64,000 nucleotides of DNA from Rhodocyclales bacterium (GTDB taxonomy: Bacteria > Pseudomonadota > Gammaproteobacteria > Burkholderiales > Rhodocyclaceae): the NCBI GenBank assembly GCA_016214145.1, contig JACRPA010000002.1, positions 124,001 to 188,000 of the forward strand, read 5' to 3'. The position numbers and the translations under genes were made by a program. This document shows positions 8,161-40,688 of this stretch, one piece after another; position 1 is the first letter of the stretch; the number at the start of each line of letters is the position of its first letter. The notes beneath the pieces are model-generated. The model saw only the letters and a program-made list of their open reading frames with translations. It was not told where the DNA came from and did not search any database.

Positions 8161-8672
8161 AAGTCGGCGCGCAATGTAAACCGTCGCGTGCACGTGGCGC
8201 CGCCCTGTGGAAGCTGACTTTCCGTGACGACGCGCACCCTCGGCGAGATGGTCTGCGCCGTGACCTGGAACCAGCGGTCGCAGCCCTCGCCGCACTGGTT
8301 CGGCAGGCCGGCCGCGCGGAAGGAATCCAGCCACGGGCAGGCGGTGTGCACCACCAGCACGGCGTCGCCGTCCTTTTCCATGTGCGCCGTCTCGCCCATC
8401 ACATCGCTGGCGCGCTGCATGGTGAAGGCGATCTGTTCGAGGTCCTCCGGCTTGCCGCCGCGCTTGAGGTACATCTTGCCGGTGCCGACGCCGACGTTCT
8501 CCCAGAAGGCGAGTTCCATTTCCTTCGCCGCCGCTTCGCCCTGGCTGTCCTTCACCGATTTCCGCCAGGCGTGGAAGAAGTCGTGGGTGATGCGGATCAT
8601 CGACTGCCAGTCTCGCTCCTTGCGCGCCAGCGCCTTCTCCAGGTCGGCGCCGCTTTTCTCCGTCGTGCTCAT
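8157..8672 (-). CDS. Hypothetical protein, possibly of the L-2-amino-thiazoline-4-carboxylate hydrolase-like family
   Basis: MSTTEKSGADLEKALARKERDWQSMIRITHDFF...HTACPWLDSF..NQCGEGCDRWF; family call is tentative. Confidence 0.6.
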   Translation of the reverse strand: MSTTEKSGADLEKALARKERDWQSMIRITHDFFHAWRKSVKDSQGEAAAKEMELAFWENVGVGTGKMYLKRGGKPEDLEQIAFTMQRASDVMGETAHMEKDGDAVLVVHTACPWLDSFRAAGLPNQCGEGCDRWFQVTAQTISPRVRVVTESQLPQGGATCTRRFTLRADL

Positions 8673-8854
8673 TGTTTGCCCTTCTCCTGTTTTCGCGCGG
8701 CGAAATCCGCCAGCGCCTGCTGGAACTCCGCCTGCATCTGCGGCGTCACCTCGGTGCCGCACTCGTAGCAGGTGTTGGTCATGCGGTCGAACCAGCGGCA
8801 GCCGCATTGCTCGCAGGCCAGTTCCGGGGCGCCGGCCGGATTGAAGAAGATCAC
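8669..8854 (-). CDS. Zinc-ribbon-like small protein
   Basis: CEQCGCRWFDRMTNTCYECG; overlapping start/stop with neighbours (operon). Confidence 0.7.
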   Translation of the reverse strand: MIFFNPAGAPELACEQCGCRWFDRMTNTCYECGTEVTPQMQAEFQQALADFAARKQEKGKQ

Positions 8855-9318
8855 CGGCAGGCTCCGAGGAAGGCCAGGCCGAGCGTGTCGAGGAACTCCT
8901 CGTAGCCGGCGTCCTGCAGCTCGTACTTCGTGCGCATGACGAAGAACATGATGTTGCCGGCGCGGATCTGCCGCTTCATCAGCGACAAAGTGTCGTCGCC
9001 GATGTTGCCGCGCAGCTTTTCCATCGCCTCGCCGTCGGCGACGAAGAGCAGGTCCACCTTGGCGTCCTGGAAACCGCGGTAGGGCGCGAGCGCGGCGCGC
9101 ATGCCGCCCGGCACGACTTCCCAGCGCAGCATCTCGCCGGCGCCCTCGGCGGCCATCAGGCCGGCGACGTGCTTGCCGGGCTGGATGCCGGAACCTTCCT
9201 TCGGCACGATGGCCACGCTCGATCCGGGCACCATCTCGGTGAACAGCTCGTCGTGGCGGTCCAGCATGGCCTGCCAGTCCGCCACTTCGCCGAAGATGCC
9301 TGCCGTCTCAATGGTCAT
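8851..9318 (-). CDS. Orphan protein, paralogue of 9424..9810
   Basis: DWQAMLDRHDE...DLLFVADGEAMEKLR...IRAGNIMFFVMRTKYELQDAGYEEFLDTLGLAF. Confidence 0.7.
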   Translation of the reverse strand: MTIETAGIFGEVADWQAMLDRHDELFTEMVPGSSVAIVPKEGSGIQPGKHVAGLMAAEGAGEMLRWEVVPGGMRAALAPYRGFQDAKVDLLFVADGEAMEKLRGNIGDDTLSLMKRQIRAGNIMFFVMRTKYELQDAGYEEFLDTLGLAFLGACR

Positions 9319-9347
9319 CAGTGCCCTTAAACTGCGGCGGTACTCAC

Positions 9348-9404
9348 GTAGGAGCCAGCTTGCTGGCGATGCGGCCGTCGAATCGCCAGCAAGCTGGCTC
9401 CTAC
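9348..9404. repeat. REP-like inverted pair, family B variant
   Basis: GTAGGAGCCAGCTTGCTGGCGAT...AATCGCCAGCAAGCTGGCTCCTAC. Confidence 0.85.
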
Positions 9405-9423
9405 CAAGCTCCGTCTAATCATG

Positions 9424-9810
9424 TCAGTGCTTGGGAAACACCAGTCCGAGGTCCTCGACGAACTCGGCCAGCCCGGCCGCTTCCAGTTCGTCCATGGTTT
9501 TCAGCATATACGGATGCAGGCGGCCTTGCCGGATCAATGCCGGCAGCGGCGCCCAGCCGGCTTCGCGCAGGGCCGCCAGCGCTTCCGCGTCGGCCACCAG
9601 CAGCACGGCCACGTCCTCGCCGGCCGCTCCGCTATACTCGCGCAATACCGCGCGGCAGCCGTCGGCCTCGCTGCGCCAGAGGAGCAGGGTGCCGCGGCGA
9701 GCGGCAAAATCGTCCCGCCGCAGCAGGCCGATCGAGGCGTTCGAAGCCGGCATGCCCTCGCGGTTCAGCATCGCTTGCCAGCCTGCGCAATTGAAAAATC
9801 CGTCTTCCAT
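9424..9810 (-). CDS. Orphan protein, paralogue of 8851..9318
   Basis: GWQAMLNREGM...AVLLVADAEALAALREA...IRQGRLHPYMLKTMDELEAAGLAEFVEDLGLVF. Confidence 0.7.
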   Translation of the reverse strand: MEDGFFNCAGWQAMLNREGMPASNASIGLLRRDDFAARRGTLLLWRSEADGCRAVLREYSGAAGEDVAVLLVADAEALAALREAGWAPLPALIRQGRLHPYMLKTMDELEAAGLAEFVEDLGLVFPKH

Positions 9811-9937: not shown

Positions 9938-11050
9938 ATGAAATCGGCAACCGGCATCGATCTTGAAGCCGTGCTGAACCGTTCCCGCCCGGCGCTGGCG
10001 CGGGCCATCACCCTGCTGGAAAACGACCGGCCGGGCGCAGCCGAACTGATGGCCGAACTGGCGCCGCGTTGCGGCCGCGCCCACGTCGTCGGCATCACCG
10101 GGGCACCGGGCGCCGGCAAGTCCACCCTCATCAACGCCCTGCTGGGCGAATTCACCCGGCGCGGGCGCAGCGTCGCCGTCGTCGCCGTCGATCCCTCCAG
10201 CCCGATCAGCGGCGGCTCCATCCTCGGCGACCGCCTGCGCATGGACGAGCACGGCTCGCGCGACGACGTCTTCATCCGCTCGGTGTCCTCGCGCGGCCAC
10301 CTCGGCGGACTGTCGCGCAACACCGGACGCATCATCGACGTCTTCGATGCCGTCGGCTTCGACACGGTGATCGTCGAGACGGTCGGCGCCGGCCAGTCGG
10401 AAGTGGAGATCCGCCATTTCGCCGACAGCAACATCGTCGTCTGCCCGCCCGGCCTGGGCGACGACGTGCAGGCCATCAAGGCCGGCATCATCGAGATCGC
10501 CGACCTGTTGGTGGTGAACAAAGCCGACCTGCCGCAGGCCGAGCGCACCGTGCTCGACCTCACCACGGCGACCCACCTGCGCCACCGCAAGGATTGGCAG
10601 GTGAAGGTGCTGCGCACCGTGGCGACCAGCGGCGAGGGCGTCGCCGCGCTGGCCGACGCCATCGAGGAACACGGCCGCGCCACCGGCATTGGCAAGCGCC
10701 TGAAGCGCGCGCCGTCCGGTCCTGCGCCGCAGGCGACGGACGAGGAACTCTTCGCGCAATTGCGCCGCTGGCGCGCCGCCGGCAAGGGCGTGGCGCTGGC
10801 CACCGTGGTGAAGACCTGGGGCTCCTCGCCGCGGCCGGAGGGCAGCCATCTGGCGGTGGAGGCGGACGGCGCCTTCGTCGGCTCGGTTTCCGGCGGCTGC
10901 ATCGAGGGCGCCGTCATCGGCGAGGCGCAGGCCGCCATCGCCGACGGCCAGCCGCGCCTGATCGAATTCGGCGTCTCCGACGAGCGCGCCTGGGAAGTCG
11001 GGCTGGCCTGTGGCGGCAAGGTGCAGGTCTACGTGGAGCGCATCGGATGA
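9938..11050 (+). CDS. Fusion: MeaB/ArgK-like P-loop GTPase + XdhC/CoxI N-terminal domain
   Basis: GITGAPGAGKSTLINALL, DPSSPISGGSILGDRLRM, NKAD; then LRRWRAAGKGVALATVVKTWGSSPRPEGSHLAVEADGAFVGSVSGGCIEGAV in one frame. Confidence 0.92.
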   Translation: MKSATGIDLEAVLNRSRPALARAITLLENDRPGAAELMAELAPRCGRAHVVGITGAPGAGKSTLINALLGEFTRRGRSVAVVAVDPSSPISGGSILGDRLRMDEHGSRDDVFIRSVSSRGHLGGLSRNTGRIIDVFDAVGFDTVIVETVGAGQSEVEIRHFADSNIVVCPPGLGDDVQAIKAGIIEIADLLVVNKADLPQAERTVLDLTTATHLRHRKDWQVKVLRTVATSGEGVAALADAIEEHGRATGIGKRLKRAPSGPAPQATDEELFAQLRRWRAAGKGVALATVVKTWGSSPRPEGSHLAVEADGAFVGSVSGGCIEGAVIGEAQAAIADGQPRLIEFGVSDERAWEVGLACGGKVQVYVERIG

Positions 11051-11075
11051 ATTGCGAACCTGCCCGGCAGAACCC

Positions 11076-11138
11076 GTGGGAGCGGCGTCCTCGCCGCGAT
11101 TACAGCCGCCAATATCGCGGCGAGGACGCCGCTCCCAC
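11076..11138. repeat. REP-like inverted pair, family B
   Basis: GTGGGAGCGGCGTCCTCGCCGCGA...TCGCGGCGAGGACGCCGCTCCCAC. Confidence 0.9.
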
Positions 11139-11180
11139 AGTGGTGTTCATGAATCCCCGCTTTCGCGGGAATGACGAGAA

Positions 11181-11867
11181 ATGAAGACCGAACTCTTCGA
11201 CCAATTGCTCGCCGAGCGCGCTGCCAAGCGCGCGGTGACGCTCGTCACCCGGCTTGCCGACGGCGCGCAGGCGCTGGTGATCGGTGATGAAATCTCCGGC
11301 GAACTCGAACTCGCGGCCGAGCAGCATGACGAAATCCGCCGCCGGCTGCGCAGCGACAAGAGCGGCACGCTGGAAACTTCCGACGGCGCGCTGTTCGCGC
11401 GCTGCTATTCGCAGCCGCCGCGCATGGTCATCGTCGGCGCCGTGCACATCACCCAGGCGCTGGCGCCGATGGCGGCGATGGCCGGCTTCGAGGTGATCGT
11501 CATCGATCCGCGCCGCGCCTTCGCCACCTCGGAGCGCCTGCCCGGCGTGACGGTGACGACGGAATGGCCCGACGAAGCGCTGGCGCGCATCGGCCTTGAC
11601 GCGCAGACCGCCGTGGTGACCCTCTCGCACGATCCCAAGCTCGACGACCCGGCGCTGATCGCGGCGCTGAAAAGTCAGTGCTTTTACATCGGCGCCCTCG
11701 GCAGCAAGCGCACCCATGCCGCCCGCGTCGAGCGCCTCCTGGCCGAGGGGCTGGGCGCGGAACTGCATCGCATCCGTGCGCCGGTCGGGCTGGACCTGGG
11801 CGGACGCTCCCCGGCGGAGATCGCCGTGTCGGTGCTCGCGCAAGTGATTCAAGCGCGCTACCGATGA
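11181..11867 (+). CDS. XdhC-family protein, Rossmann-domain half
   Basis: PPRMVIVGAVHITQALAPMAAMAGFEVIVIDPR...YIGALGSKRTHAARVERL...RIRAPVGLDLGGRSPAEIAVSVLAQVI. Confidence 0.92.
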   Translation: MKTELFDQLLAERAAKRAVTLVTRLADGAQALVIGDEISGELELAAEQHDEIRRRLRSDKSGTLETSDGALFARCYSQPPRMVIVGAVHITQALAPMAAMAGFEVIVIDPRRAFATSERLPGVTVTTEWPDEALARIGLDAQTAVVTLSHDPKLDDPALIAALKSQCFYIGALGSKRTHAARVERLLAEGLGAELHRIRAPVGLDLGGRSPAEIAVSVLAQVIQARYR

Positions 11868-11970: not shown

Positions 11971-13602
11971 ATGATCTTCGGCGAATTCCGCTGCGACGAG
12001 GCCGAGGGCGTGACGCTCGCCCACACGCTGAACCTCGGCGAAAAGACGCTGAAGAAGGGCCGCGTTCTGACTTCCGCGGACATATCCCTGCTCGAACAGG
12101 CCGGCATCGCCGTCGTCACCGGCGCGCGCATGCAGGCGGGCGACCTCGACGAGAACGCCGGCGCCGGCGAGATCGCCGCGCTGCTGGTCGGCCCGAACAC
12201 GGAAACCCGCCGCCCCTACACCGGCCGCTGCAACGTGCACGCTTCGAAGCGCGGCGTGCTGCGGGTGGACGCCGCGCGCATCGACGCCATCAACCAACTC
12301 GACGAGGCCATCGCCATCGGCACGCTGCCCGACCATGCCCTGGCGCGCCACGGCCAGGTGCTCGCCACGGTGAAGATCATCCCCTTCGCCGTGACGCGCG
12401 AGCTGGTCGAGCGCTGCCGCGCCATCGCCGCGGGCAGGCCGCTGCTCAAGCTCGCCGAATTGCAACCGCGCCGCGCCGCGCTGATCCTGGGCGAGCTGCC
12501 GGGCATGAAGGAGAACGTTTTCCGCGGCACCGTCACCGCCACGCGCAACCGGCTGGAAGGCCTCGGCAGCCGCCTCGCCCTGGTGCTGCGCTGCCGCCAC
12601 GAACGGCGCGAGATCGAGGCCCAGTTGCGCCAGGCGCTTGCTGCCGGCTGCGATCTGCTGCTGGTCGCCGGCGCCACGGTGACCAAGGACCGCCTCGACG
12701 TCGTGCCCGCCGCGGTGACGGCGGCCGGCGGTACGATCGAGCACTTCGGCATGCCGGTCGAGCCGGGCAACATGCTGCTGCTCGCGAACCTTGGTGCCGT
12801 GCCGGTGCTGGTGCTGCCCGGCTGCGCCCGCTCGCGCCGCTCGAACGGTCTCGACTGGGCGCTGCAGCGCCTGTTGGCCGGCCTGCCGCTGACCCGCGCC
12901 GAGATCATGCGCATGGGCGTCGGCGGCCTCATCCGCAGCCCGCTGGAACCCGAGGACGAGGAGGAGGGCGAGGTGGAGAGCGTGCCGAGCGTTCCCGCCG
13001 GCGCGCCGAACGTTGCCGCGCTGGTGCTCGCCGCGGGGCAGTCGTCGCGCATGGGCGGCACGAACAAGCTGCTCGCCGAGGTCGACGGCGTGCCGATGGT
13101 GCTGCGCGCGGTGAACGCCGCGCTGGCCTCGAAGGCCGCCTCGGTGACGGTGGTGCTCGGCCATGAAGCGGAAATGGTCGAGACCCTGCTCGCCGGACGC
13201 AAGGTGACTATCGTGCGCAACCCCGAATTCGCGCAGGGCATGTCCACCTCGCTGCGCGCCGGCATTGCGGCGTTGCCGGTGGAGGCCGAAGCGGCCGTGG
13301 TGCTGCTCGCCGACATGCCGCGCGTGAATGCCGTGCATGTCGACCGCCTGATCGACGCCTTCGAGGCGAAGCAGCCGGCCATCGTCGTGCCGCAGCGGAA
13401 CGGAAAGCGCGGCAATCCCATCCTCTGGCCGCGCGAGTTCTTCGCCAGGATGCAGGCGGTGAGCGGCGACAAGGGCGCGCGCGGTTTGCTCGAAGAACAT
13501 CCCCAGCGCATCCGCAGCATCGAGATGGGCGACGACGCCATCCATGCGGATGTCGATACGCCGGACCACCTGCAGGCGCTGAAAACGGCAGCCGAGCGAT
13601 GA
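11971..13602 (+). CDS. Molybdopterin-binding domain fused to MobA/MocA-like nucleotidyltransferase
   Basis: MoeA/CinA-like N-terminus; LVLAAGQSSRMGGTNKLLAEVDGVPMV nucleotidyltransferase signature. Confidence 0.88.
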   Translation: MIFGEFRCDEAEGVTLAHTLNLGEKTLKKGRVLTSADISLLEQAGIAVVTGARMQAGDLDENAGAGEIAALLVGPNTETRRPYTGRCNVHASKRGVLRVDAARIDAINQLDEAIAIGTLPDHALARHGQVLATVKIIPFAVTRELVERCRAIAAGRPLLKLAELQPRRAALILGELPGMKENVFRGTVTATRNRLEGLGSRLALVLRCRHERREIEAQLRQALAAGCDLLLVAGATVTKDRLDVVPAAVTAAGGTIEHFGMPVEPGNMLLLANLGAVPVLVLPGCARSRRSNGLDWALQRLLAGLPLTRAEIMRMGVGGLIRSPLEPEDEEEGEVESVPSVPAGAPNVAALVLAAGQSSRMGGTNKLLAEVDGVPMVLRAVNAALASKAASVTVVLGHEAEMVETLLAGRKVTIVRNPEFAQGMSTSLRAGIAALPVEAEAAVVLLADMPRVNAVHVDRLIDAFEAKQPAIVVPQRNGKRGNPILWPREFFARMQAVSGDKGARGLLEEHPQRIRSIEMGDDAIHADVDTPDHLQALKTAAER

Positions 13603-13628: not shown

Positions 13629-13716
13629 GTGGGAGCGGCGTCCTCGCCGCGAATTGGCGCTGCACCCCAAGGGCACTTCCTGCGGGGCGCAATCGCGGCG
13701 AGGACGCCGCTCCCAC
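13629..13716. repeat. REP-like inverted pair, family B, with long linker
   Basis: GTGGGAGCGGCGTCCTCGCCGCGA...linker...TCGCGGCGAGGACGCCGCTCCCAC. Confidence 0.9.
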
Positions 13717-13726
13717 AGGGAAAACC

Positions 13727-14941
13727 ATGAACTTCTCTCCGGCCAAATGGCGCAGGCACTTTCCGCTGCTGGCGGCCCACCACGAGCTGCATTACCTCGA
13801 CAATGCCGCCACCGGGCAGACCTGCGCCGCAGCGCTGAATGCGGCGACGGCCTTCGATACACAGTCGCGCGCCAACGTCCTGCGCGGCACCTACCGCCTC
13901 GCCGAGCAGGCCGACGCCGCCTACGAGAACGCGCGGCGGCAGGCCGCCGCCTACCTGAATGCCGCGGGCTCGGAAGAGGTGGTGTTCACCGCCGGCACCA
14001 CGGCCTCGATCAACCTCGTCGCCCATGCCTTCGGCGAAGGGTTGCATGCCGGCGACGAGGTCGTGCTGAGCCTCGCCGAGCACCACAGCAATTTCGTGCC
14101 CTGGCAGATGCTGCGCGAGCGGCGCGGCGTCGTGCTGCGCCTCCTGCCGCTCACGGCCGACGGCCGCATCGACCTTTCCCGCCTCGGCGAAACGCTGACG
14201 CCGCGCTGCAAGCTGGCTGCCGTCACGCATGCCTCCAACGTCACCGGCGCCGTCACCGGCCTGGCGCCGATCGTCGCCGCCGCCCGCGCCGTCGGCGCCC
14301 GCGTGCTGATCGACGGCGCGCAGGCGGTGCAGCACGGCCCGGTGGATGTCGCCGCGCTCGGCGCGGATTTCTACGCCTTCTCCGGCCACAAGGCCTTCGG
14401 TCCCACCGGAGTCGGCGTGCTGTGGGGCAGGGGTGAGGCGCTGGCCGCGCTGCCGCCCTTCCTCGGCGGCGGCGGCATGATCGGGCGCGTGACGGTTGAG
14501 GAAACAACTTATGCTCCACCGCCGCGCCGCTTCGAGGCCGGCACGCCGCCCATCGCCCAGGCCATCGGTCTGGGCGCGGCGCTCGACTGGCTGCGCGCGC
14601 AGCCATGGGCGGACATGAACGCCCACACGGCGCGCCTCGCGCAGCGGCTGATCGACGGACTCGCCGTGCTACGGGGACTGACTTTTCTCGGGCCGCGCGA
14701 TCTGAAGGAGCGCCTGCCCATCGTCTCCTTCAATCTTGAAGGCATACACCCGCACGACGCCTGCCAGGTGCTGGATGAATACGGCGTCGCCGTGCGCGGC
14801 GGCCACCACTGCGCCCAGCCGCTGATGGATTTCTTCGGCGTGCAGGGCGCCGTGCGCGCCAGCATCGCTCCCTACAACGACGACGCCGACATCGACGCCC
14901 TGCTGGCGGGCCTGCAGGATGCGGTACGAAAACTAAAATGA
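13727..14941 (+). CDS. Cysteine desulfurase, SufS-like (class V aminotransferase)
   Basis: DNAATGQTC, SGHKAFGPTGVGVLWG (PLP Lys), RGGHHCAQPLM (catalytic Cys). Confidence 0.92.
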   Translation: MNFSPAKWRRHFPLLAAHHELHYLDNAATGQTCAAALNAATAFDTQSRANVLRGTYRLAEQADAAYENARRQAAAYLNAAGSEEVVFTAGTTASINLVAHAFGEGLHAGDEVVLSLAEHHSNFVPWQMLRERRGVVLRLLPLTADGRIDLSRLGETLTPRCKLAAVTHASNVTGAVTGLAPIVAAARAVGARVLIDGAQAVQHGPVDVAALGADFYAFSGHKAFGPTGVGVLWGRGEALAALPPFLGGGGMIGRVTVEETTYAPPPRRFEAGTPPIAQAIGLGAALDWLRAQPWADMNAHTARLAQRLIDGLAVLRGLTFLGPRDLKERLPIVSFNLEGIHPHDACQVLDEYGVAVRGGHHCAQPLMDFFGVQGAVRASIAPYNDDADIDALLAGLQDAVRKLK

Positions 14942-15038: not shown

Positions 15039-15464
15039 ATGAATTCTCCCGACCTCTACCAGCAGGCGCTGCTCGACCTCGCCAGGGCGGCCCACGGCGC
15101 AGGCACGCTGCCGTCGCCCGACGGCAGCGTGCTGCGCGACAGCCCGCTGTGCGGCGACCGCGTGCGCCTGCAGGTGGCGCTGGAGGCCGGCCGCATCACG
15201 GCCATCGCCCACGACGTGAAGGGCTGCCTGCTCTGCCGCGCCGCCGCCTCGCTGGTCGGTCTGCACGGCACCGGCCTGAATGCGACGGAGGCGGATGCCC
15301 TGCGCGGGCAGGTCGCCGCGACGCTGGCCGGCAGCGAGCCGCCGCCCGGCTGGCCGGAACTCGCCCTCTTCGCGCCGGTGCGCCCCCACCGCAACCGCCA
15401 CGGCTGCGTGCTGCTGCCCTTCGAGGCGCTGGCGGCCGCACTGGACAGCCACAGCCGCGCTTAG
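15039..15464 (+). CDS. SufU/IscU-like Fe-S scaffold or sulfurtransferase partner
   Basis: DLYQQALLDLARAAHGAG...SPLCGDRVRL...VKGCLLCRAAASL. Confidence 0.82.
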   Translation: MNSPDLYQQALLDLARAAHGAGTLPSPDGSVLRDSPLCGDRVRLQVALEAGRITAIAHDVKGCLLCRAAASLVGLHGTGLNATEADALRGQVAATLAGSEPPPGWPELALFAPVRPHRNRHGCVLLPFEALAAALDSHSRA

Positions 15465-26299: not shown

Positions 26300-29200
26300 T
26301 CAGGCAGCCGCAGCCGCCGTCTCGGCGTGCTGCGGGGACTGACTATAGCGTTCCATCAGTTCGGCCTGCTTCGTCCGCGCCGCGGCGGCATTGCGCAGCT
26401 TGATCGGGCCGTAGCCGCGGATGGTCTCCGGCAGGCGTGCGATCTCGGCGGCGGCAGACAGATTGTCGGCGCGCAGGCCGGCCAGCAGCGCCTCAACCGT
26501 CTTCTCGTATTCGCCGATGAGGGCGCGCTCCATGCGGCGCTCCTCGCTGCGGCCGAACGGGTCGAAGGCGGTGCCGCGCAGGAATTTCAGCTTCGCCAGC
26601 GGCTTCATCGCCAGGCGCATCCAGCTCCCGTAGGCGAATTTCTTCGGCATGCCGGTATGCGGGTCGTTGCGGCTGATGAATGGAATCGCCAGGTGGAAAT
26701 GCAGGCGGTAGTCGCCCTCGAAGGTGGACGCCAGCGTGCGCTCGAATTCCGCGTCGCTGAAGAGGCGCGCCACCTCGTATTCGTCCTTGTAGGCGAGCAG
26801 CCTGAAGTAGTTGCGCGCGACGGCCTCGGACAAGGCCTCGCTGCCGGGCTGCGCGGCCGTCTCGGCGGCGCGCACGCGTTCGACCAGCGCGGCGTAGCGC
26901 TGCGCGTAGGCGGCGTCCTGAAAGTCAGTCAGCACGGCACGGCGGCGGGCGACGATTTCGTCCAGACTCTTCGACAGTTCGTGCGTCGGCAGCACCGGCT
27001 CGCTGGCGGCGACCAGGTATTCGATGGCCACCGGATCATGGGCGGCACGACGGCCCCAGAGGAAGGCCGCCTGGTTGTCCTCGACGGCGACGCCGTTCAG
27101 CTCGATGGCGCGCATCAGGGCATCGCGAGAAAGCGGCACGCGGCCCTTCTGCCAGGCGTAGCCGAGCATGAACATGTTGGTGCCGATGGAGTGGCCCATC
27201 AGCAGCGTGGCGAGGCGGCTGGCGTCGAAGAGGTCGGCGCAGCCGTCGCCGACCGATTCGCGTATCTGGCCTTCCATGGTGGCGAGCGGGAAGGGGTGGT
27301 CGGGATTGCGCACGAAGTCGCCGGTGATGGCCTTGCCGGTGTTGACGATGGCGCGGGTGCGGCCGGTCTGCGTCTTGACCAGGGCGTCGTTGCTGACGGC
27401 GACGACGATGTCGCAGCCGAGCAGGGTGTCGGCCTCGCCGGTGGCGATGCGCGTGGCGTGGAGCTGGTCCTGCCGTTCGGCCAGGCGCACGTGCGACATG
27501 ACGGCGCCGCCCTTTTGCGCGAGGCCGGTCATGTCGAGCACCGAGACGCCCTTGCCCTCGAGGTGGGCGGCCATGCCGATCAGCGCGCCGATGGTCACCA
27601 CGCCGGTGCCGCCGACGCCGGCGACGAGGATGCCGCAGGGCTTCTCCAGGCTGGGCAGCGCGGGTTCGGGCAGATCGGCGAAAGCGCCGCCCGAAGTCTG
27701 CAGCGCCTTGCCGCGCCGCAACTGGCCGCCGTGCACGGTGAGGATGCTCGGGCAGAAGCCGGAGACGCAGGCGTAGTCCTTGTTGCAGGTGGACTGGTCG
27801 ATGGCGCGCTTCCTGCCGAACTCGGTCTCGACCGGCACGACGGAGAGGCAGTTCGACTTGGCGCTGCAGTCGCCGCAGCCCTCGCACACCTGTTCGTTGA
27901 TGAAGACGCGCACGGCGGGGTCGGGGAATTTGCCGCGCTTGCGCCGGCGGCGCTTTTCGGCGGCGCAGGTCTGGTCGTACACCAGCACGGTGACGCCGGG
28001 GACGTCGCGCAGCTCGCGCTGGACGCGCTCCAGTTCGTCGCGGTGGAGGATCTCGATGCCTGAAGCGAAGCCGGCATTGTCGCCGTACTTGTCCGGGTCG
28101 TCGGCCAGCACGACGATGCGGGCGACGCCTTCCGATTCGATCTGGCGGGTGATCTGCGGCACCGTCAGCGGGCCATCCACCGGCTGGCCGCCGGTCATCG
28201 CCACGGCGTCGTTGTAGAGCAGCTTGTAGGTGATGTTGACGTTGGCGGCAATCGCAGCGCGGATGGCGAGCAGGCCGGAGTGGTAATAAGTGCCGTCGCC
28301 CATGTTGGCGAAGACGTGATGCGTGCCCGATTGTCCGGCCATGCCGAGCCAGGTGGCGCCTTCGCCGCCCATCTGGCTGATGGTGACGGTGTTGCGCCCC
28401 ATCCACACCGCCATCAGGTGGCAGCCGACGCCGCCCAGCGCGCAGGAGCCTTCCGGCACGCGCGTGGACAGGTTGTGCGGGCAGCCCGGGCAGAAGTAGG
28501 GCGTGCGCAGCAGGGACAGCTTGGGCTTGGCCAGCGCCTGGTCTTTCGCTTCGAGGAAGGCCAGCCGCTCGCGGATCTTTTCCGAGGTGTGGAAGCGCGC
28601 GATGCGCGCGGCGATGGCGCGCGCGACGATGGCCGGCGTCAGCTCGGCCGTCGGCGGCAGCAGCCAGGCGTGGTGCGGCGCCGGCCACTCGCCGGTCTCG
28701 TCGAACTTGCCGACGACGCGCGGGCGCACGTCTTCCCGCCAGTTGTAGAGCATCTCCTTCAACTGGTATTCGATGATCTGGCGCTTCTCCTCGACGACGA
28801 GGATCTCCTCCAGCCCTTCGGCGAAGTGGCGCACGCCGTCGGCCTCCAGCGGCCAGGGCATGCCGACCTTGTACAGGCGCAGGCCGAGCTCGGCGGCGAG
28901 CGCGGCGTCGATGCCGAGGTCGTCGAGCGCCTGGCGCACGTCGAGGTAGGCCTTGCCGCAGGCGATGATGCCGAGGCGCGGCCGCGGGCTGTCGAAGACC
29001 AGGTAGTTGAGGCGGTTGGCGCGGGCGTAGGCGAGGGCCGCATACACCTTGGATTCCTGCATGCGGTGTTCCTGCGCCAGCTGCGGATCGGGCCAGCGGA
29101 TGTTCACGCCATCCGGCGGCAGGGTGAAATCCTCGGGCAGGCGGATGACGACGCGGTTCGGGTCGACCTCGACGGAGGCGGTGCTCTCGACGGTGTCGGA

Positions 29201-34492: not shown

Positions 34493-34588
34493 TTCACCAC
34501 AGAGACACAGAGGCACAGAGAAAGACAAGAACAAAGTCGGTTTTTTTTTCATTTGCAGTTCTCTGTGTCTCTGTGCCTCTGTGGTTAA
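34493..34588. repeat. Long inverted repeat, family D
   Basis: caccacagagacacagaggcacagagaaa...ttctctgtgtctctgtgcctctgtggtt. Confidence 0.88.
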
Positions 34589-36957
34589 TGGTGTTGCCCT
34601 TTTGCCTTTAACGCCCGGTAAACCTTCTCCGGCGTAAACGGCAGCGCCATGATGCGCACGCCGGTGGCGTTCTCGATGGCGTTGGCGGTGGCGGCGGCGA
34701 TGCAGATGGCCGGCGCCTCGCCGACGCCCTTGGCGCCCTGCGGGCCTTCGCCGTCCATGGTCTCGATGAAGCGCACGTCCATCTCGGGGATCTCCGGCGC
34801 GGTGACCAGCTTGTAGTCGCGGAAGCCGGGGTTCCTCACCACGCCGTTCTCCACCAACAGTTCCTCGGTCAGCGCGTAGCCCTGGCCCATGACGATGCCG
34901 CCCTCGATCTGGCCCTCGATGCCGAGGCGGTTGAGCACGCGGCCGACGTCGTGGGCGCCGGTGACCTTGAGCAGGCGGACGATGCCGGTGTCGGTGTCCA
35001 CCTCGACCTCGACCACCTGCGTCGCCCAGGCGTAGGCGGCGGAGACGTCGCCCTTGAAGTGCTTGTCCTGGTGCTTCGACGGCGGCTCGTAGTAGAAGGA
35101 GGTCATCACCAGCTCGGCCTTGTCGCTGAAGTGCAGCTGGCGCAGCAGCTTGGCCAGCGTCATCACCACCTTGCCGCTCTTCGCCTCGACGATGTGGCCG
35201 CCGCGCAGGTCGAGTTCGTCCGGATTCAGGTCGGCCATCTTGCCGGCGGCGGCGAGGATCTTGCCGCGCGCCTTCTTCGCCGCGCCTATGGCCGAGTTGC
35301 CGGCGATGAAGGTGGTGCGCGAGGCGTGCACGCCGACGTCCCACGGCGTGATCTCGGTGTCGTTGTTGATGACGCGCACGGCGGAGAGCGGCAGCCCGAG
35401 CTCCTCGCAGACGAGCTGCGCCAGCACCGTTTCCGAACCCTGGCCGATTTCGGAGGCGCCGGTGATCAGCGTCACCGAGCCGAAGTCGTCCATCTTGAGG
35501 ATGGTGCCGCAGCCGTCCGACGGGTAGATCTTGGCGCCGCCGCCGACGTGCAGCATCGAGGCGATGCCGATGCCGTGCTTGAAGCGGCCGGGCTTGTCGC
35601 GATTGGCGCGGTTGGCTCCGGCTTTCGCCAGAAAGCCGCTCGCCTCGGCGGCGGTCGTCAGGCATTCCTTCAGGCCGCAGCTCTTGAAGTGCATGCCCTG
35701 CGGCGTCACCTCGCCGGGGTCCTGCGCGTTCTTCAGGCGGAAGGCGAGCGGGTCCATGCCGATGGCCTCGGCCATCATGTCCATGTGCTGCTCGACGGCG
35801 AAGGTGGCCTGCAGGTTGCCGTAGCCGCGGAAGGAGCCGGCGTAGGGGTTGTTCGTGTACACCGCCTTGGTGTGGTAGAGGCAGTGCGGCACGCGGTAGA
35901 GCGACGAGATCGTCTGCATCATGACGAAGGGCGTCGTTGCGCCCCACGAGGTGTAGGCGCCGTTGTCGTGCAGGGTGCTGACGGTGCGGAAAGTCAGCGT
36001 GCCGTCCTTTTTGCAGCCGGAGCGCAGGGTGAGGATCACCGGCTGGCGCGTCGGCGAGGCGAGGAACTCCTCCTCCCGCGTAAATATCAGCTTGACCGGC
36101 CGTCCGGTGGCCCTGGCGAGGAACACCGTGATCGGCTCGAAGGGATAGATGTCGAGCTTGGAGCCGAAGCCGCCGCCGATGGGCGGCTGGATGATGCGGA
36201 TGCGCGCCGGGTCCATGGCGAGGATCTCGGCGAACTCGCGCTTGTGCAGGAAGGGCACCTGGGTGTTGGAATACATCAGCAGGTTCCCGGAGGAGTCGAA
36301 CTCGGCGATGATGCCGGACACCCCCATGCAGCAGTGCGTGACGTAGTGCAGGTGGAAGGTGTCCTCGAACACCACGTCGGATTCGCGCTCGCCCGCCGCC
36401 ACGTCGCCCTGCGCGTAGTCGAAGACCATGGCGATGTTGTCGGGCTTGCCGGCGTAGGCGATGCCCTGCGCCTGCTTGAGGTGGTCGTGCTTGGCCGTCG
36501 CGCCGTGCGGCTCGGGATGGATCAGCGGCGCGCCCGGCTTGAGCGACTCGTTCGGGTCGGCGAGCACCGGCAGATCCTCGTACTCGACCCTGATCAGCTT
36601 CAGCGCGGCTTCCGCAATGGCCTCGGATTCCGCCGCCACGGCGGCGATCTCGTCGCGCAGGCTGCGCACGCGGTCGGTCTTCAGCGGAAAGTGGTCCTTG
36701 GCGACGCCGATCGGGCGCTGGTAAGGCACGTCGGCGGCGGTGATCACGGCGTGCACGCCGGACAGCGCCTTCGCCGCCGAGGTGTCGATGCTCTTGATCT
36801 TCGCGTGCACCCGGGACGAGCGCAGGATCTTGCCGTAGAGCTGGCCCTGCACGTCGAGGTCCTGGATGTAGCGCGTCTTGCCGCCGGCCTTCTCGGGCGC
36901 ATCGAGCTTGGTGATGCGCTTGCCGATGAGAGTGTCTTTCTGGATGGCTTCTGGCAT
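34585..36957 (-). CDS. Xanthine dehydrogenase-family molybdenum hydroxylase, large subunit
   Basis: 790 aa; GGGFGSKLDIYPFEPITVFLARATGRPVKL; active-site GAKGVGEAPA. Confidence 0.92.
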   Translation of the reverse strand: MPEAIQKDTLIGKRITKLDAPEKAGGKTRYIQDLDVQGQLYGKILRSSRVHAKIKSIDTSAAKALSGVHAVITAADVPYQRPIGVAKDHFPLKTDRVRSLRDEIAAVAAESEAIAEAALKLIRVEYEDLPVLADPNESLKPGAPLIHPEPHGATAKHDHLKQAQGIAYAGKPDNIAMVFDYAQGDVAAGERESDVVFEDTFHLHYVTHCCMGVSGIIAEFDSSGNLLMYSNTQVPFLHKREFAEILAMDPARIRIIQPPIGGGFGSKLDIYPFEPITVFLARATGRPVKLIFTREEEFLASPTRQPVILTLRSGCKKDGTLTFRTVSTLHDNGAYTSWGATTPFVMMQTISSLYRVPHCLYHTKAVYTNNPYAGSFRGYGNLQATFAVEQHMDMMAEAIGMDPLAFRLKNAQDPGEVTPQGMHFKSCGLKECLTTAAEASGFLAKAGANRANRDKPGRFKHGIGIASMLHVGGGAKIYPSDGCGTILKMDDFGSVTLITGASEIGQGSETVLAQLVCEELGLPLSAVRVINNDTEITPWDVGVHASRTTFIAGNSAIGAAKKARGKILAAAGKMADLNPDELDLRGGHIVEAKSGKVVMTLAKLLRQLHFSDKAELVMTSFYYEPPSKHQDKHFKGDVSAAYAWATQVVEVEVDTDTGIVRLLKVTGAHDVGRVLNRLGIEGQIEGGIVMGQGYALTEELLVENGVVRNPGFRDYKLVTAPEIPEMDVRFIETMDGEGPQGAKGVGEAPAICIAAATANAIENATGVRIMALPFTPEKVYRALKAKGQHH

Positions 36958-36987
36958 TTCAGTCTGTCCTTAAAAGCATTCTTTGGC

Positions 36988-37062
36988 CGCGGATTACGCG
37001 GATTTACGCGGATAAACCAGACCTGAAGAAATCCGCGTTCATCCGCGAAATCCGCGGCAAAT
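36988..37062. repeat. Long inverted repeat, family F (CGCGGAT units)
   Basis: gccgcggattacgcggatttacgcggat...atccgcgttcatccgcgaaatccgcggc. Confidence 0.88.
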
Positions 37063-37067
37063 GGTTT

Positions 37068-37532
37068 TTACTCCTTGCTCGCAGCCTCAATCGCGTCGAC
37101 GATCTTGACGTAGCCGGTGCAGCGGCACAGGTTGCCCTCGATGCCGCGCTGGATTTCCTCGCGGCTCGGGTGCGGGTTCTGTTCGAGCAATTGTTTGGCC
37201 TGCATCACCATGCCCGGCGTGCAGAAGCCGCACTGCACCGCGCCGGCATCGACGAAGGCCTTCTCGATGCGCAGGCCGACCGGATCGGCGGCCAGGCCCT
37301 CGATGGTGGTGACCGCGCGGCCGTCGCACTCGACGGCGAAGAGCAGGCAGGAATTCAGGGAGACGCCGTCGAGCAGGATGGTGCAGGCGCCGCATTCGCC
37401 CTCGCCGCAGCCGTACTTGGTGCCGGTCAGGCCGGCGACGTTGCGGATCATCTCCAGGGCGCTCATCTGCACGGGCACCGACACGCGGGTCGGCACGCCG
37501 TTGAGGGTGAAGTCAATGGTTTGCTGCGACAT
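37068..37532 (-). CDS. Molybdenum hydroxylase 2x[2Fe-2S] subunit
   Basis: GCGEGECGACTILLDG; QCGFCTPGMVMQ; LCRCTGYVKI. Confidence 0.95.
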   Translation of the reverse strand: MSQQTIDFTLNGVPTRVSVPVQMSALEMIRNVAGLTGTKYGCGEGECGACTILLDGVSLNSCLLFAVECDGRAVTTIEGLAADPVGLRIEKAFVDAGAVQCGFCTPGMVMQAKQLLEQNPHPSREEIQRGIEGNLCRCTGYVKIVDAIEAASKE

Positions 37533-38385
37533 CTTCGAGGATCCTTCTCGTCATGTTGTGGATCATCTCCTTGCGGTACCAGGCGCTGGCGCGCACGTCG
37601 GAGATGGGATGCACTTCGTCCTGCGCCGCCTGGGCGGCGGCGTCGATGGTGGCGGCGTCGAGCTTTTTGCCTTCCAGCGCCTCCTCGGTGGCGCAGCCGC
37701 AGACCGGCGTCGGCGCCACGGCGCCGAAGGCGACGCGCACCTGGCTCAGCTTGCCGTCCTTGAGCACGCCGGCGACGCCGATGGAGATCGCCGAGATGTC
37801 CAGCGCCGGACGCGTGCCGAACTTGTGGAAGCGCGCGACGAAGCCCTTCGGCGGGATCGGAATGCGCACGGCGGTGAGCAGCTCGGCCGGGGCGAGCCGT
37901 GTCTTGCCGGGGCCGACGAAGAACTCCGGCAGCGGCATGCTGCGGCGGAACAGCTTGTCGTCGGGCTTCGAGGCGAGCTCGACGCTGGCGCCGAGCACCA
38001 TCAGCGGCACCAGCGTGTCGCCGGCGGGCGAGGCGTTGCAGATGTTGCCGCCGAGGGTGGCGGCGTTGCGGATCTGGCCGCTGGCGAAATGGTCGCCGGT
38101 GGAGACGAGGAGCGGCAGGTGCTCGCTCACCAGCGGGTGCGCCATGATCTCGGCGATGGTGGTCAGCGCACCGATGCGGATTTCGCCGTCCTCGCGGACA
38201 ATGCCGCGCAGCTCCGGGATGCGGCGGATGTTCATCAGGGTGCGCTTGAATTTCACGCGCCCCGCGTTGGCCTGCGGCATCAGGTCGGTGCCGCCGGCGA
38301 GGATGGTCACCTCGCCGAGTTCCTGCAGCTGCTCCACCGCCTGTTCCAGGCTGGTGGGAGCTATGTAATTGTCGAGTGCGGTCAT
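37513..38385 (-). CDS. Molybdenum hydroxylase FAD-binding subunit
   Basis: ILAGGTDLMPQ; RNAATLGGNICNASPAGDTL; overlaps FeS subunit by 20 nt. Confidence 0.93.
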   Translation of the reverse strand: MTALDNYIAPTSLEQAVEQLQELGEVTILAGGTDLMPQANAGRVKFKRTLMNIRRIPELRGIVREDGEIRIGALTTIAEIMAHPLVSEHLPLLVSTGDHFASGQIRNAATLGGNICNASPAGDTLVPLMVLGASVELASKPDDKLFRRSMPLPEFFVGPGKTRLAPAELLTAVRIPIPPKGFVARFHKFGTRPALDISAISIGVAGVLKDGKLSQVRVAFGAVAPTPVCGCATEEALEGKKLDAATIDAAAQAAQDEVHPISDVRASAWYRKEMIHNMTRRILEDVAANH

Positions 38386-38527: not shown

Positions 38528-40141
38528 CTAAAACCTTATCGGCTCCTGGTAGCGGCCGAATATTTTCACGAGTTCATTGGTCATTTCGCCGACGCTGGCA
38601 TAGGCCTTGACGGCTTCGACCAGGGCCGGCATGACGTTGCGGCCCGAAGTGGCATCGGCGGAAAGTCGCGCCAGCGCCTGCGTCACCCTGGCCTGGTCGC
38701 GCTCGGCGCGGATCTTGTTGAGGCCGGCGATCTGCACCCGCGTGTCCTTCTCGTTGTAGGGGTGGAACTCGACCGGGTGCTCCTCCTCCTTTTCGTTGCG
38801 GTAGCAGTTGACGCCGACCTTGCGGAACTTGCCCGACTCGATGTCGCGCTGCATCCGGTAGGCCTGGGCGGAGACCTTGGACTGGATGGCGCCCTCGGAG
38901 ACGAGCTTGACGATGCCGCCCTGGGCATCGACCTCGGCCATGATCTCTTCCATCTTCTGCCGCATCTGGTTGGTCAGGGTCTCGACGTAGAACGAGCCGC
39001 CCAGCGGGTCGACCGTCTCGGTCAGGCCCATTTCCTCGATCAGCAGCTGCATGGTGCGCAGCGAGATGCGCGCCGAGTACTCGGTGGGGATGGTGTAGGC
39101 CTCGTCGTAGGAGCACAGCGCCATGGTCTGCGTGCCGGACAGGGCCGAGATCAGCGCGTAGTAGGCGCCGCGCACGATGTTCACCTCGGGCTGCTCGAAC
39201 GTCAGTCCGCCGCCGCCGCCGGCGGCGATCATGCGCAGCCACATCGAGCCGGGCTTCTCGGCGCCGTACTGCTCCTTCATGATTTTCGCCCACAGGCCGC
39301 GGCCGGCACGGAACTTGGCCACCTGCTCGAAGAGGTTGCCGAAGATGTTGAAGTTGTAGGACAGGCGCCCGGCGAACTCGTCGACGGCCAGGCCGCGCTT
39401 GATGACGTCGTCGGCGTAGGCCTTGGCGATGCAGAAGGCGTAGGCCATCTCCTGCGCCGGGTTGGCGCCGGATTCGCGGATGTGGTAGCCGCACACCGAG
39501 ACGGGGCTGTACTTCGGCGCGTGTTCGGCGCAGTACTCGATGGTGTCGCCGACCAGGCGGATGGAGGGCTCGACCGGGAAGATCCAGGTGCCGCGGCCGA
39601 TGAACTCCTTGAGGATGTCGTTCTGCGCCGTGCCGCGCAATTGCTTGACGTCGTAGCCGCGCTTTTCCGCCATCGCCAGGTACATGGCGATGAGGATGGC
39701 CGCCGCGCCGTTGATGGTGAGCGAGACGGTGATCTTGTTCAGGTCGATGCCGTCGAAGGCGATTTCGAAGTCGCGCAGGGTGTCCACCGACATGCCGACG
39801 CGGCCGATCTCGCCGGAGGCCAAGGGGTCGTCGGAATCGAGGCCGATCTGCGTCGGCAGGTCGAAGGCGACGTTGAGGCCGGTCTGCCCGTTGGCGATGA
39901 GGTACTTGAAGCGCTGGTTGGTGTCGGCCGGGTTGCCGAAGCCGGCGTACTGGCGCATGGTCCACGGCTGCTTGCGGTACATCAGGCGGTGGATGCCGCG
40001 GGTGAAGGGGTATTCGCCCGGCTGGCCGAGCATCGACAGGCCGCCGCTCTTCTCGACGTCCACCGCCGTGTACAGCGGCTTGACCTCGATGCCCGACTCG
40101 TTGGTGATCGGCTTCAATTCATCCTTGGCGCGATCGTTCAT
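38528..40141 (-). CDS. B12-dependent acyl-CoA mutase, large subunit (candidate 2-aminophenylsuccinyl-CoA mutase)
   Basis: PWTMRQYAGFGNPADTNQRFKYLIANGQTGLNVAFDLPTQIGLDSDDP; EFIGRGTWIFP; ISGYH-like VCGYHIRESGA. Confidence 0.92.
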   Translation of the reverse strand: MNDRAKDELKPITNESGIEVKPLYTAVDVEKSGGLSMLGQPGEYPFTRGIHRLMYRKQPWTMRQYAGFGNPADTNQRFKYLIANGQTGLNVAFDLPTQIGLDSDDPLASGEIGRVGMSVDTLRDFEIAFDGIDLNKITVSLTINGAAAILIAMYLAMAEKRGYDVKQLRGTAQNDILKEFIGRGTWIFPVEPSIRLVGDTIEYCAEHAPKYSPVSVCGYHIRESGANPAQEMAYAFCIAKAYADDVIKRGLAVDEFAGRLSYNFNIFGNLFEQVAKFRAGRGLWAKIMKEQYGAEKPGSMWLRMIAAGGGGGLTFEQPEVNIVRGAYYALISALSGTQTMALCSYDEAYTIPTEYSARISLRTMQLLIEEMGLTETVDPLGGSFYVETLTNQMRQKMEEIMAEVDAQGGIVKLVSEGAIQSKVSAQAYRMQRDIESGKFRKVGVNCYRNEKEEEHPVEFHPYNEKDTRVQIAGLNKIRAERDQARVTQALARLSADATSGRNVMPALVEAVKAYASVGEMTNELVKIFGRYQEPIRF

Positions 40142-40156
40142 GTTGCAAACCCCTTT

Positions 40157-40257
40157 TTGCCGCGGATGAACGCGGATGAACGCGGATTTGAGAAATGGAC
40201 AGCTCCGGTTTGGCTTGGCTGTTTTCCAATCCGCGTAAATCCGCGTAATCCGCGGCT
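40157..40257. repeat. Long inverted repeat, family F
   Basis: ttgccgcggatgaacgcggatgaacgcggattt...aatccgcgtaaatccgcgtaatccgcggc. Confidence 0.88.
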
Positions 40258-40271
40258 AATGCCTTTCAAAT

Positions 40272-40688
40272 TCATTTCACATGCTCCCGGATGTAGTCGA
40301 CGATGGCGTCGAACTTGCTGCCCGTCGGGAAGATGCCGGCGAAGCCGAGCTGGCGCAGGGCGTCGTGGTCCTGCGCCGGCAGGTTGCCGCCGATCACCCA
40401 CAGCTTGTCCTGCAGGTGGTTGGCTTCCAGCAGCGGCTTCAGCTTGGTGCAGAAGGGGATGTGCGAGCCGGCCAGGCTGGACAGGGCGATGACGTCGACG
40501 TCCTCGTCGAGCGCCATGCGCGCGATGGCTTCCGGCGTCTGGCGCAGGCCGGTGTAGATGACCTCCATGCCGGCGTCCATGAGCGCGCGCACGACGACCT
40601 TGGCGCCCTGGTCGTGGCCGTCGAGGCCGGGCTTGGCTAGCAGGACCTTGATTCGCCGTATTGTGGAGACTGACTTTTCGGCGCTCAT
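40272..40688 (-). CDS. B12-binding small subunit of acyl-CoA mutase
   Basis: KVLLAKPGLDGHDQGAKVVVRALMDAGMEVIYTGLRQTPE (DxHxxG). Confidence 0.95.
   Translation of the reverse strand: MSAEKSVSTIRRIKVLLAKPGLDGHDQGAKVVVRALMDAGMEVIYTGLRQTPEAIARMALDEDVDVIALSSLAGSHIPFCTKLKPLLEANHLQDKLWVIGGNLPAQDHDALRQLGFAGIFPTGSKFDAIVDYIREHVK

Follow-up and report, generated by a model that had tools for sequence, protein, structure and literature searches.

A MeaB-type GTPase fused in frame to half of the molybdenum cofactor (Moco) chaperone XdhC is encoded in the 64,000-nucleotide stretch of DNA analyzed here (the window), and the fusion recurs in relatives that carry the pathway for anaerobic degradation of the plant hormone indoleacetate (iaa). 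From domain content and gene neighborhoods, we consider it probable, at roughly two chances in three, that the protein is a two-headed maturation factor dedicated to this pathway, with each head in its usual job: MeaB for a B12-dependent mutase and XdhC for a molybdenum hydroxylase. The MeaB-XdhC fusion is apparently undescribed so far; our literature search found no paper with both MeaB and XdhC, and the sole paper with ArgK and XdhC was a genome announcement.

Results

A MeaB-type G domain runs into the N-terminal half of XdhC

The fusion gene (Table 1) is open throughout, with no internal stops. In its product, Pfam recognizes MeaB (PF03308) at residues 20 to 249 (E = 3e-93) and then XdhC_CoxI (PF02625) at residues 278 to 345 (E = 1e-26), and the next open reading frame matches XdhC_C (PF13478; E = 3e-41). 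Both XdhC domains, XdhC_CoxI and the Rossmann domain, are present, on two genes. These results bear out the first-pass annotation, which had read an in-frame join of MeaB to the XdhC N-terminal domain with the Rossmann domain as a separate gene. It had also called the MeaB part intact. That description holds for the Walker A (residues 55 to 63), DPSSPISGG, and NKAD motifs and fails for the C terminus, where the match ends at position 238 of the 273-position profile and the dimerization arm is absent.

Table 1. Location of the fusion, its operon, and its presumed clients in the window
Feature	Position	Strand	Basis
MeaB-XdhC_CoxI fusion gene, 370 aa	9938..11050	+	ORF and Pfam; in frame in ~25 relatives
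MeaB G domain, residues 1-249, without C-terminal dimerization arm	9938..10684	+	PF03308 profile 1-238/273
Flexible linker, residues 250-277, variable in length and sequence	10685..10768	+	Alignment with relatives; G014 model
XdhC_CoxI domain (XdhC N-terminal half)	10769..10972	+	PF02625, residues 278-345
REP-like perfect inverted repeat, 22-bp arms, between XdhC halves	11078..11136	.	Repeat search
XdhC Rossmann half (XdhC_C), only XdhC_C of this genome	11181..11867	+	Pfam; genome search
Molybdopterin-binding (MoeA/MogA-like) domain fused to MocA-type Moco cytidylyltransferase	11971..13602	+	Pfam/profile match
SufS-family cysteine desulfurase, probable sulfur donor for Moco	13727..14941	+	TIGR01979 above cutoff
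SufU/NifU-N-like protein	15039..15464	+	Pfam; TIGR01994 below cutoff
Indoleacetate Mo hydroxylase: large 34585-36957, small 37068-37532, FAD 37513-38385	34585..38385	-	Only XDH-family Mo enzyme found in genome
Split B12 acyl-CoA mutase IaaGH: large 38528-40141, B12-binding 40272-40688	38528..40688	-	Homology; PMC8360864

The P-loop, the base-specificity motif, switch I/II (D92, D105, E154; M. extorquens MeaB numbering, used for all such residues), and switch III (D182, Q185, and K188, corresponding to D175, Q178, and K181 of the fusion) are all in place, and the MeaB part scores 323 against the TIGR00750 cutoff of 240.75. Lacking the C-terminal dimerization extension, it is a MeaB-type G domain and not a canonical full MeaB. 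Equivalents of D92, D105, R108, E154, Q160, D182, Q185, and K188, which MeaB needs for mutase-coupled GTP hydrolysis (PMC9974510), are invariant in 73/73 aligned MeaB domains, fused or unfused. The arm is missing in every fusion: the tail after the G domain measures 45 to 81 aa in arm-bearing MeaBs, and in the fusions it exceeds 100 aa and belongs to another family.

The fusion is kept in frame across three families

The same fusion is common to ~25 relatives, which span three families and nine or more genera, counts among named organisms being lower bounds. The in-frame join occurs in the window's genus (G001, G002, G004, G007 to G011, G013, and G014), in other genera of the family (G019, G024, G075, G082, G086, G132, G137, G173, G203, G267, G308, G319, and G320), and beyond it in G647 and G383, which belong to two other families of the order, as well as in a Burkholderiales metagenome-assembled genome (MAG; L182). 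G137 is Aromatoleum aromaticum EbN1 (plasmid NC_006823.1), G647 is apparently the same genome as L181, and the G383 protein has MeaB joined to the XdhC Rossmann domain only, by a weak match. A frame error joining two genes, a worry raised at first pass, is excluded by the in-frame join in ~25 independent assemblies, by purifying selection on both halves (dN/dS, ~0.1 to 0.5), and by single chains of 603 to 627 aa with the order MeaB-XdhC(N)-XdhC(C) in G007, G010, G014, G082, G203, and G267. The same recurrence rules out an assembly artifact, and we also rejected a chance fusion of neighbors confined to one genome.

The linker is unconserved, and several relatives carry in-frame repeat insertions of the PLPPAGEG type; the frame is always kept. 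An AlphaFold model of the G014 triple fusion (pLDDT, 78.7; pTM, 0.51), which informs on folds and the disordered linker only, has pLDDT values of <50 at linker residues 258 to 274. Its MeaB part matches MeaB structures, and the best structural match of its XdhC part is 2we8.

The fusion accompanies the indoleacetate pathway

Positions 26300 to 49507 form an iaa region for anaerobic indoleacetate degradation, a pathway whose operon is known from A. aromaticum (PMC8360864). The operon set is complete: CoA ligase, a hydantoinase-like pair, the acyl-CoA dehydrogenase IaaF, IaaGH, the Mo hydroxylase, and a CaiB-type transferase. The first-pass annotation had placed a split B12 mutase and a Mo hydroxylase in one putative pathway; both are indeed there, and the pathway is the known iaa operon. 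Over its full length, the mutase is 79 to 97% identical to those of relatives and 87% identical to that of A. aromaticum EbN1. The MeaB half presumably serves IaaGH, and the XdhC half presumably serves the indoleacetate hydroxylase. Fusion and mutase genes are separate and 28 kb apart in the window.

A search for co-occurrence with the mutase and XDH-family genes, suggested along with the original annotation, gave a clear answer. Among 299 genomes of the family, 25 have a MeaB-XdhC or MeaB-MocA fusion and 274 do not. IaaG (≥76% identity) occurs in 24/25 fusion genomes versus 16/274 others (Fisher p ~9e-24), or, by genus, in 7/7 versus 3/61 (p = 1e-7); the genomes are related and not independent, and these p values overstate the association. 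The lone fusion genome without IaaG among the 25 (G008) is a MAG that is 85% complete, and no IaaG was seen either in G014, which lies outside the sample and is 83% complete. Fusion genomes of two further families are also iaa positive (G647/G689, 86 to 87%; G383, 88%).

Physical linkage points the same way as this near-perfect co-occurrence. In 13 of 24 genomes, fusion and iaaG lie on one contig at a distance of 11 to 57 kb, and all single-contig chromosomes in the set are among these 13; the other genomes have them on separate contigs, most of which are short. They are 18 kb apart in A. aromaticum EbN1, the fusion directly adjoins the iaa-associated IOR gene at the IOR/SBP end of the iaa region in L181 and L182, and in G031, which has a MocA fusion, they lie on different contigs, at least tens of kilobases apart. 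The association of the fusion with the iaa pathway is thus very strong.

In the genome to which the window belongs, chaperones and clients match up in number, which supports the assignment of clients. There is one XDH-family Mo large subunit, that of the iaa hydroxylase, and one XdhC; there are three acyl-CoA mutases (IaaG, methylmalonyl-CoA mutase [MCM], and IcmF) and three MeaB domains (the fusion, one beside MCM, and one inside IcmF). Given these one-to-one counts, by elimination the fusion would serve IaaGH and the iaa hydroxylase. In G002 (L270) and G009 (L271), the MCM locus lacks the adjacent MeaB present there in G000 and G001, so the fusion may serve MCM too, which weakens the argument by elimination. 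Similarly, five relatives have a second Mo hydroxylase (form II, CoxL-like) in the operon, so that XdhC is not always dedicated to iaa.

The fusion belongs to a molybdenum maturation operon

XdhC-family proteins bind Moco, support its sulfuration with a cysteine desulfurase, and deliver it to an XDH-family enzyme (PMC2997495). The gene complement around the fusion fits the production and insertion of sulfurated MCD-type Moco. The two XdhC halves are separated by only 130 bp with a REP-like inverted repeat; two perfect pairs of such repeats (GGGAGCGGCGTCCTCGCCGCGA), at 11078 to 11136 and 13631 to 13714, are both intergenic in this operon. Five relatives (G001, G002, G004, G008, and G013) have a cassette for a CoxL-type Mo hydroxylase between the halves. 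The CoxSLM cassette of G001 (L033:9049-15463), with equivalents in the other four, has the form II motif AYRGAGR and is followed by CoxD-, CoxE-, and CoxG-like genes (checked with Pfam) and then by XdhC(C).

We considered the split of XdhC as an unusual feature and rejected this idea: the XdhC halves also stand alone in relatives without MeaB, and on Azospirillum plasmids the matches are a pair of neighboring genes labeled "XdhC family protein." The same kind of XdhC maturation operon is found without MeaB in G016, G021, and G040. Upstream of the fusion, at 8669 to 9810 on the minus strand, are small genes without Pfam matches, comprising a Zn-ribbon-like protein of 61 aa (8669 to 8854) and a look-alike pair (8851 to 9318 and 9424 to 9810). 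Genes of this type adjoin the XdhC operon in relatives, even without MeaB (G016, L049).

The MeaB lineage changes its C-terminal partners

On the MeaB tree, the XdhC fusions group, with modest support (83/92), with MocA fusions (G031 and G115), with a G151 fusion whose C-terminal partner is a salicylyl/anthraniloyl-CoA hydroxylase, and with an unfused MeaB that heads the iaa operon in genus g2. The 1,060-aa MeaB-flavoprotein of G151 (L160:4986-8168) lies beside an iaa-like cluster with a 38% identical mutase, and no Mo hydroxylase was seen in the stretch read at this locus. In the g2 protein (L048:9225-10295 in G016), a tail of ~100 residues replaces the dimerization arm, and no Pfam match explains it. 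Another tree group has MeaB-4HBT thioesterase fusions, encoded in operons of the order mutS-mutL-MeaB; the nearest unfused relatives of the fusion MeaB are also found in operons of this kind. MeaB-4HBT-type thioesterases were recorded at L183:10001-11200, L185, L187, L194, L196, L164 (G093), L168 (G286), and L274 (G610); these loci adjoin a B12 mutase ~35% identical to IaaG, and we found no literature description of this fusion. Judging from these sequences, the constant element is the presumed B12-mutase chaperone and the variable element is the C-terminal partner. That one MeaB lineage swaps partners argues against a special MeaB-to-Mo signal.

Discussion

In the mechanism that we propose, the GTP cycle of the MeaB head would open the B12-binding domain of IaaGH for adenosylcobalamin loading and repair. 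The XdhC head, with its N-terminal domain on the fusion and its Rossmann half from the next gene or, in some relatives, the same chain, would hold Moco while the operon's SufS-type desulfurase sulfurates it and would then deliver the sulfurated cofactor to indoleacetate hydroxylase. We infer that the heads, on their flexible tether, most likely act independently and that the fusion would fix a 1:1 supply of two chaperones needed simultaneously. MeaB activity requires a dimer in which switch III acts in trans (PMC9974510); IcmF, a notable fused case, reaches the G-domain dimer state by oligomerizing (PMC10481361); and XdhC is a dimer (PMC2997495). Since the arm is absent, we speculate that XdhC replaces it as the dimerization module; dimeric XdhC would then probably provide dimerization for the arm-less MeaB. 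The fusion is dispensable for either job: genomes of g2 and g7 run iaa with separate proteins, and in G005, which has iaaG, MeaB of this clade was not detected.

The join might also be a product of operon drift, in which the stop between neighboring genes was lost and the two domains still work separately, the join itself having no use beyond coexpression. The variable partners in the lineage (MocA in G031 and G115, salicylyl/anthraniloyl-CoA hydroxylase in G151) and the thioesterase in the sister operon type fit this explanation, as do unconserved linkers that tolerate repeat insertions. A useless join, however, should split again repeatedly, whereas this one persists across at least nine genera in three families, its linker insertions never break the frame, and the MeaB arm is lost where the fusions occur. 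We therefore regard drift as rather unlikely. A more elaborate idea, which we find decidedly doubtful, is that an arm-less MeaB branch uses interchangeable oligomeric partners (XdhC, MocA, and flavin hydroxylase, plus thioesterase in a sister branch), such that assembly of a second cofactor enzyme in the same pathway physically shares, and may be timed by, the GTP-dependent dimer rearrangement that loads B12.

The initial hypothesis of a dual-cofactor GTPase survives insofar as co-occurrence, linkage, and client counts favor service to two enzymes of one pathway, a B12 mutase and a Mo hydroxylase; its further proposal, coupling of the two assemblies, is unsupported and unlikely. Such coupling would have the GTP-driven rotation of the MeaB dimer passed to XdhC, coordinating Moco and B12, or have MeaB gate Moco. 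Its appeal lies in the dimerization that the MeaB active state requires (PMC9974510), in the dimeric state of XdhC (PMC2997495), in two lineage partners that are Mo-cofactor proteins (XdhC and MocA), and in the G383 chain, where MeaB is joined solely to a weakly matching XdhC Rossmann domain. We nevertheless judge it very improbable, given the disordered linker, the unchanged MeaB switch residues, the partners unrelated to Mo that this lineage or its sister carries (G151, G093, L183, and others), and the relatives with an XdhC operon without MeaB. The alternative put forward at first pass, a MeaB module repurposed to gate Mo insertion, likewise lacks support: catalytic and switch III residues are unchanged, the partner elsewhere is non-Mo or missing, and G016, G021, and G040 manage their XdhC operon without MeaB. 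That the MeaB head is now a Mo-only factor, no longer serving a B12 enzyme, gains some color from its place in an operon with a full set of Mo maturation genes (XdhC, MocA, SufS, and SufU), but it is scarcely credible: the fusion tracks the iaa B12 mutase and not Mo hydroxylases generally, its nearest unfused relatives sit in mutS-mutL-MeaB operons, and the B12-specific switch III is invariant.

The two-headed factor that we favor would matter in several respects. Cofactor chaperones have been studied singly; here, B12 and molybdenum chaperones are one molecule, in a pathway needing both and in a cultivated model organism. The fusion is a natural test of whether the MeaB dimerization arm can be replaced, an issue raised by IcmF and MeaB structures. 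It also points to probable maturation factors for the two indoleacetate enzymes, mutase and hydroxylase; the main text of PMC8360864 mentions none, and the words "chaperone," "molybdenum," and "cobalamin" have zero occurrences there.

The fusion resembles several known systems in part. With MeaB/MMAA, the chaperone of methylmalonyl-CoA mutase (PF03308, TIGR00750; PDB 2qm8 and 8dpb), it shares the G domain, the switch I to III residues, and the base motif; unlike MeaB/MMAA, it has XdhC in place of the dimerization arm, and its probable client is the iaa mutase rather than MCM. It has the same two domains as the XdhC/CoxI Moco chaperone (PF02625 plus PF13478; PDB 2we8 and 3on5) and, like it, stands beside MocA and a cysteine desulfurase, but a GTPase precedes the N-terminal half and the domains are spread over two genes, as is seen elsewhere too. 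The operon described in A. aromaticum (PMC8360864) is the one in the window, with the fusion outside it. IcmF (PMC10481361) also joins a MeaB-type G domain to another protein; there, the partner is the chaperone's own client mutase, whereas here it is a chaperone for a different cofactor, which sets the fusion apart from the IcmF type.
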